DNA of 36,050 nt from Deltaproteobacteria bacterium (lineage in GTDB: Bacteria; UBA10199; GCA-002796325; JACPFF01): the NCBI GenBank assembly GCA_016183125.1, contig JACPFG010000038.1:1-36050 (forward strand), in the 5' to 3' direction. Below, in pieces: positions 8,408 through 36,050 of the stretch (position 1 is its first letter; each line of letters begins with the position of its first letter). The notes beneath the pieces are model-generated. The model had not been told where the DNA came from and did not search any database. It worked only from the letters and a program-made list of their open reading frames with translations. Both the position numbers and the translations under genes were made by a program.

Positions 8408-8544
8408 GCCGCGGTGGGACGAAGGTTCGGGCCGGGTCGGCTTCGGCTTACGGGCCTCCGCCGCCCTTAGCCTCGCGCCCGGCGGCATCATCACCATAGA
8501 TGCCGCGCGCTCCGGATATCCCTCACCTTCCGCCCCACCGCGGC
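8408..8544. repeat. Palindromic dispersed element, copy A
   Basis: Perfect 11-bp terminal arms GCCGCGGTGGG / CCCACCGCGGC, inner stem GCGGCATC / GATGCCGC; shares TCGGCTTACGGGCCTC, TTCGGGCCG and ATATCCCTCA blocks with copy B at ~35831-35975. Confidence 0.75.
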
Positions 8545-8852
8545 ATAGTCGCTCCCGGATTTTCCATATTATCTGATTTGCTTTAATGACTAAGAGGGGG
8601 ACGAGGAACCAGCCAGCGAAGTTGGAGAGGGGAACGCCGAAGTAGGGGCCGCCGTGCGGATAGTAATAGATCCGGCCGAGGAACCACCGGTCGCCGCGGA
8701 CGGTGAGCGGATCTATAATAATATCGAGGATCATGGTGAGGAGGGCCCCCGCCAATGCCGACTGCCATCCCCCGCTTCCGGGGCGGTGCCGTAGCGGGGC
8801 CTGGGGTGGGGGAGCCCGCCAGAGGCGGGGGGGCGCGAGGTGGAGCCGGTCG

Positions 8853-8873
8853 CCAGTGGCGACCGGAAGCACC
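8853..8873. repeat. Perfect inverted repeat / hairpin
   Basis: CCGGTCGCC-AGT-GGCGACCGG (9-bp arms, 3-nt loop) in the spacer between the DUF422 remnant and hemN; coordinates approximate by a few nt. Confidence 0.7.
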
Positions 8874-8979
8874 GAACGCTGATGAACGATCTGTCCAAGC
8901 TTGCTGGGCGGAGCCCCCTCCCGAGGTCGAGACCCGCGGAGGGAGCCGCCCGGCAGCGAGGTTTTGCTATATATTACCA

Positions 8980-35742: not shown

Positions 35743-35830
35743 ACCATGGTAACGAGTTTTACCGCACGCGCAAACTTTCTGTAATTTGCAGAGCAACATA
35801 ATTGCCCCCGTGCGACTCACACATCGGATG

Positions 35831-35975
35831 CGGCCTCGGCCGGGGACGGTGGATTCGGGCCGCCGTCTCCTCGGCTTACGGGCCTCGTCGCGGCTTATCC
35901 TCGCTCGCCGCAACATCAGACACCATCGATGCGGCTCGCTGCGCATATCCCTCATCCCCCGCCCCGGCCTCGCCG
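35831..35975. repeat. Palindromic dispersed element, copy B
   Basis: Arms GGCCGGGG (35838-35845) / CCCCGGCC (35962-35969), inner stem CCG..CATC / GATGCGG; shares TTCGGGCCG, TCGGCTTACGGGCCTC, CTTA.CCTCGC, ACCAT.GATGC and ATATCCCTCA with copy A. Confidence 0.75.
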
Positions 35976-36050
35976 CTTTCCGAAAGCACGTTATAACAGT
36001 TACCTCTCTGCCCCACGCATCAAGTGGATAAAGATACTCCAAGTCTCCCC

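Follow-up and report, generated by a model that had tools for sequence, protein, structure and literature searches.

A dispersed palindromic repeat family with a strand-specific fold and site-specific arms across a class of uncultured bacteria

The stretch of DNA analysed here (the window; 36,050 nucleotides) belongs to a draft genome of 1.77 Mb in 142 contigs (G000) and carries two copies of a palindromic element, copy A and copy B (Table 1). A sequence-only reading had paired the two loci as one dispersed palindrome, and both loci and all the sequence blocks quoted for them were verified at the noted positions and in identical orientation. The outer arms of copy A, GCCGCGGTGGGACG (8408-8421) and CGCCCCACCGCGGC (8531-8544), pair at 13 of 14 positions, and their sequence resembles no other copy's arm; those of copy B are GGCCGGGG (35838-35845) and CCCCGGCC (35962-35969). 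That the outermost arms are unlike between copies and self-complementary within each is correct and general, but the outer stem (P1) of copy B is itself imperfect: its arm score is 10, against 26-35 in fresh copies from the genome of a sister genus (G001). Copy B is a member of an intergenic subfamily with decayed arms. The repeat shared by this subfamily reaches past 35831-35975; its left end (~35776) is approximate, and its right end is cut off by the contig end.

Table 1 Features of the window and related sites in its genome.
Feature	Position	Strand	Basis or remark
Copy A host ORF, CruF/Caroten_synth-like, 265 aa	8183..8980	-	Pfam PF04240, E 4e-12
Copy A, entire palindrome including outer stem P1	8408..8544	-	arms ~18-19 nt, one bulge
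Copy A conserved core, three-way junction P2 + P3, loop CCGTAA	8423..8527	-	covariance model match
f2, second unrelated palindromic family, in copy A's host ORF	8780..8957	-	matches given in text
Longer repeat common to subfamily B copies	35776..36050	.	flank multiple alignment, ~30 copies
Copy B, intergenic-subfamily palindrome, P1 imperfect	35830..35976	-	arm score
Copy B conserved core, P2 loop one base longer	35851..35956	-	covariance model match
TCCGCCA...TGGCGGA hairpin sites, G000	C77:5189-5350, C16:13715, C57:10491, C105:68, C25:16233, C136:5432		

The conserved cores match a covariance model at 100 bits (E 2e-23; copy A was in the training set) and 97 bits (E 1e-22), respectively. Both copies fold more stably than dinucleotide shuffles, with the minus strand the better one (z of -4.3 minus and -4.0 plus for copy A, -4.9 minus and -2.7 plus for copy B). 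The ORF around copy A has 24 class orthologues without the insert, and homology picks up in frame past the element. Its usual N-terminal part is gone, with a copy of f2 in its place (matching G000:C71:7853-8018 at 92% and C30:9428-9606 at 87%), and the gene may be damaged.

As a DNA query against G000, copy A found 32 places, with E-values down to 7e-80 and copy B at 2.9e-16. The 16-mer core occurs there 26 times exactly and at 35 sites with two mismatches or fewer, against 2 for the reversed control: the two palindromes are therefore not chance matches. Several G000 contigs start or stop at an element copy, as expected where repeats break assembly. Scanning 85,462 species genomes for the exact pattern returned no match because the primary sequence diverges beyond the genus, and a DNA search of 98 relatives gave two short weak matches and nothing more, so a structure-based search was needed. 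A covariance model of stems P2 and P3 trained on G000 and G001 (R1) returned 33 places in G000, 47 in G001 and zero in the third genus of the bacterial family. It also matches eight further class genomes outside its training genera, with best E-values of 5e-14 to 3e-8 in G046, G012, G041, G025, G008, G003 and G010 and a weak match in G018. A second, broadened model (R2) detected the element in 15 of the 47 class genomes and in 1 of 338 from outside the class, its counts being lower bounds since ten candidates were scored per genome. The one positive outside the class (G223) has at least six copies; these may have been acquired horizontally, or the family may be distributed more widely than the sampling shows.

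The element family spans the whole class, whose named members are uncultured genomes mostly labelled Deltaproteobacteria in GenBank. A lack of additional copies or of covariation would have refuted the sequence-only reading; neither was the case, and the family is wider and more structured than that reading supposed. Neither its class-wide range nor the in-frame position of copy A was visible from the two copies. It had recognised no named family, and we found no credible Rfam match: in Rfam 15 nothing in the window reaches a gathering threshold, and E-value mode gives matches far below gathering scores. The family is new and previously unnamed. A third subfamily in G001 (L139:390-494, L213:1786-1891) has the same architecture with the loop TCGAT in place of CCGTAA, and a short hairpin, TCCGCCA...TGGCGGA (Table 1), is nested in several element copies or substitutes for their P2.

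It is the minus strand of the window that is informative; along it a copy reads P1 left arm, P2, P3 with the loop CCGTAA, P1 right arm. This layout describes a three-way junction: a long outer P1, made of the arms first noticed, a variable P2, and a P3 capped by the near-invariant CCGTAA. For one subfamily, the RNAalifold structure of 13 copies contains 52 pairs, and compensatory double changes are present at 25 of these; the internal loops are mainly tandem G-A steps. Mismatches in the P1 arms of 85 copies, counted on the model strand, include 152 A-G and 16 C-T. Because an A-G mismatch becomes C-T when read on the complement, this excess assigns the structure to the model (minus) strand, as RNA or single-stranded DNA. 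In thermodynamic folding, too, it was the model strand that had the greater stability, in 17/17, 18/18 and 6/8 copies.

The fold is conserved and strand-specific, with very strong covariation. P2 and P3 have 96.6% standard pairs in an alignment of 60 copies, with 320 double-change cells against 85 when shuffled and at most 77 when slid, although this alignment was fitted to the model and so leans towards it. A MAFFT alignment of 18 copies (A4), the one behind the first model and with a structure proposed by RNAalifold, has 47 such cells against 19 shuffled and at most 14 slid. Covariation in the family, first suspected from copies A and B, is far above both controls. The further claim, selection on a fold rather than neutral duplication, suits the inner stems P2 and P3; the outermost arms do not by themselves prove it, because inverted copying or template-switch correction predicts the same arm covariation. 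Two copies 1.3 kb apart in G012:C9 (L316 1501-1607, 2846-2951) have near-identical arms and a P2 that differs by compensated changes.

The P1 arms are specific to the site. Arm scores are 20.0 within a copy and 6.2 between copies for 53 copies of other genomes, and 23.6 and 5.9, respectively, for 11 diverse copies. In G001, the P1 arms of the copies on C21, C24, C38, C4 and C9 are 26-33 bp long, with one mismatch or none, and are mutually largely unrelated. In subfamily S of the same genome, the share of 26 positions that pair is 93% within a copy and 67% between copies (0 of 5000 permutations). In this subfamily, as in G010, G025 and G223, different copies have related arms, so P1 is there at least partly inherited.

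We looked for the P1 arms elsewhere in G001 and found none, and on this ground we rejected the idea that the arms derive from another repeat in which the element is nested. It is also unlikely that the element inserted into palindromes already present in the host, as perfect stems of 26-33 bp would have to have stood beforehand in metH and other genes. The bias of G-T over A-C in the arms is 16 to 1 in subfamily S and merely 61 to 37 over all copies; given its weakness across all copies, it was not used as main evidence. Counting against a strict inverted duplication, frame arithmetic requires 1-2 chance bases for it at the majority of in-gene sites, and this arithmetic gave no answer on which arm is host-derived. 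Either the P1 arms are written at insertion, or they co-evolve by templated copying or selection.

Genic copies that stay in frame occur in the two genera represented by G000 and G001; of 53 copies checked in ~11 other genomes, nearly all are intergenic. In G000, one lies in the second half of Der and one in a Fas1/MaoC/acyltransferase (fatty-acid-synthase) ORF on C132. G001 has one in methionine synthase (MetH), between the B12-binding and activation domains, and others in a PMT_2 membrane protein (glycosyltransferase) and a TonB_C protein. The host is a long open ORF in the C132, MetH, PMT_2 and TonB_C cases, and relatives have no insert in the MetH linker (G003) or the Der linker. The G000 der gene also has an upstream deletion with a frameshift, and since it and the CruF-like gene both look damaged, in-frame status may mean little in these two hosts. 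The element is GC-rich with 2-4 open frames, and searching via long ORFs favours in-frame cases; we therefore read in-frame insertion as survivorship, not targeting.

We interpret the element as a non-autonomous mobile palindromic repeat of ~140-190 bp, of which one folded strand is active and which acts like a Rickettsia palindromic element (RPE), with a probability of roughly 0.6. The resemblance to RPEs is probably due to convergence.

The copies could instead be structured cis-acting RNAs that serve mRNA processing, stability or attenuation, held by selection on the fold and mobile only incidentally, a reading that we consider doubtful. It would account for the strand-specific covariation, the conserved loop and the tandem G-A motifs, and for the intergenic position of most class copies, such as those in the trpE-trpG gap of G010 and at the gspI/J and gspJ/K junctions of G008; ERIC sets a precedent as a mobile repeat affecting mRNA stability (PMC2229807). 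However, copy number ranges from 0 to 47 across related genomes, some copies lie within coding regions, and copies stand in either orientation relative to genes with no neighbouring gene in common.

Strand specificity would also fit an element of REP/BIME type or IS200/IS605 descent that is mobilised by a Y1 (RAYT) transposase acting on a single-stranded hairpin, and Y1_Tnp genes are present in both G000 (3) and G001 (4). This origin is improbable: the elements measure 140-190 bp rather than 20-40, no core copy lies close to the Y1 genes examined, many non-carriers have several Y1_Tnp matches, and four carriers have none (G017, 98% complete; G035, 95%; and the less complete G041 and G046). These four carriers make the Y1 transposase a poor candidate for the mobiliser, and no mobilising gene or linked transposase was identified. 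Ordinary decayed MITE or IS fragments, neutral duplicates that are palindromic merely through paired terminal repeats, would be dispersed, repeated and found at contig ends, and subfamily B does belong to a longer repeat, but this explanation is likewise improbable because inherited terminal repeats should match between copies while these arms differ, and because the inner stems covary, which only an alignment artefact could reconcile with it; nor was direct target duplication seen by eye at the arm ends inspected, within their uncertainty of a few bases.

If the element is a mobile palindromic repeat as we propose, its active form would be one strand folded as a three-way junction, with P1 as the closing stem. 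This strand, whether RNA or single-stranded DNA, would be recognised through its P2/P3 head by a putative enzyme and inserted without a fixed target. P1 would not simply be inherited from the donor: it may be finished at the new site by inverted copying of the flank or, alternatively, its complementarity may be maintained afterwards through template switching. Insertions would persist mostly between genes and, within genes, only where the peptide that they add is in frame, free of stops and tolerated.

The best single hint for inverted copying is an indirect one from a different family, f2, which occurs in frame in TrmFO (65 aa), a PD40/BamA-like ORF of 1034 aa and PgeF (G000:C71, C30 and C62). 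The insert in TrmFO is exactly 65 residues long, the positions flanking it are adjacent in the solved structure 3g5q, and class orthologues hold a fixed K-xxx-G spacing at this site. The ends of the insertion are CATTTCAAAACCCT and AGGGTTTTGAAATG. Should the left end belong to the host (HFKTL, then N-G), deletion of core and right end together would bring back the spacing with nothing further assumed, and the right end would then be an inverted copy of host DNA. In the sister genus, the same TrmFO loop holds a different in-frame palindrome of ~90 nt (L187, G001:C6:27405-27494); two different palindromes in one loop point to a repeated target or an unusually tolerant site. Another f2 copy follows a partial duplicate of a neighbouring tRNA gene with, by eye, a CAT anticodon (L099, G000:C77:4440-4760).

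A bolder version of the mobile-repeat reading, which we regard as unlikely, makes the family a new class of mobile element that would travel as a folded single strand with a conserved P2/P3 head and write an inverted copy of 15-35 flanking host bases at each landing site. Were it true, each insertion would close on itself as a hairpin specific to its site, and the target would be duplicated in inverted instead of direct form. The family combines several dozen copies and a defined fold with subfamilies of differing age, and its many fresh copies, whose arms vary by site, make the mechanism testable by strain comparison. Rickettsia, Wolbachia and one archaeon are known to have in-frame mobile palindromes, and the way in which such elements move becomes testable here. 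The covariance model serves as a query for any metagenome, and structured single-strand elements may account for part of the palindromic repeats in genomes.

MITEs are defined by shared terminal repeats, often with TA ends and target duplications. The present element is like them in size and placement, but lacks the shared terminal repeats: its arms are partly shared only inside genome-specific subfamilies, and no direct target duplication was seen by eye at the arm ends inspected, whose exact limits may be off by a few bases. Bacterial MITEs such as ERIC/IRU are 100-200 bp long and mostly intergenic, their transcripts are predicted to be highly base-paired, and some of them carry open frames (PMC2229807). 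With REP/BIME/REPIN sequences and their RAYT, the element has in common that both are dispersed hairpins, possibly handled as single strands; its size and architecture differ, and G017, G035, G041 and G046 carry it without Y1_Tnp. PARCELs are likewise palindromic coding sequence spread over genomes (PMC2996958), but they form amphipathic domains in tandem, chiefly in membrane proteins, whereas this element is found as single insertions of ~140 bp.

RPEs are palindromes of ~105-146 bp that form a stem-loop, occur in several families per genome, and are intergenic or fused in frame into conserved genes; in-frame palindromes have also been reported in Wolbachia and Methanocaldococcus jannaschii (PMC2229807, PMC10969869, PMC2996958). 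The likeness in concept to RPEs that the first reading had suggested is borne out in G000 and G001, where a palindrome dispersed within one genome is found in frame within unrelated genes, and the element shares with RPEs its size class, palindromic form, dispersal and in-frame genic copies. By description, the two differ: the element belongs to a different lineage and, among the genomes searched, is confined to its class and one genome outside it. Its three-way junction is conserved class-wide together with a near-invariant loop, and its P1 arms vary with the site and reach 36 bp of perfect pairing.
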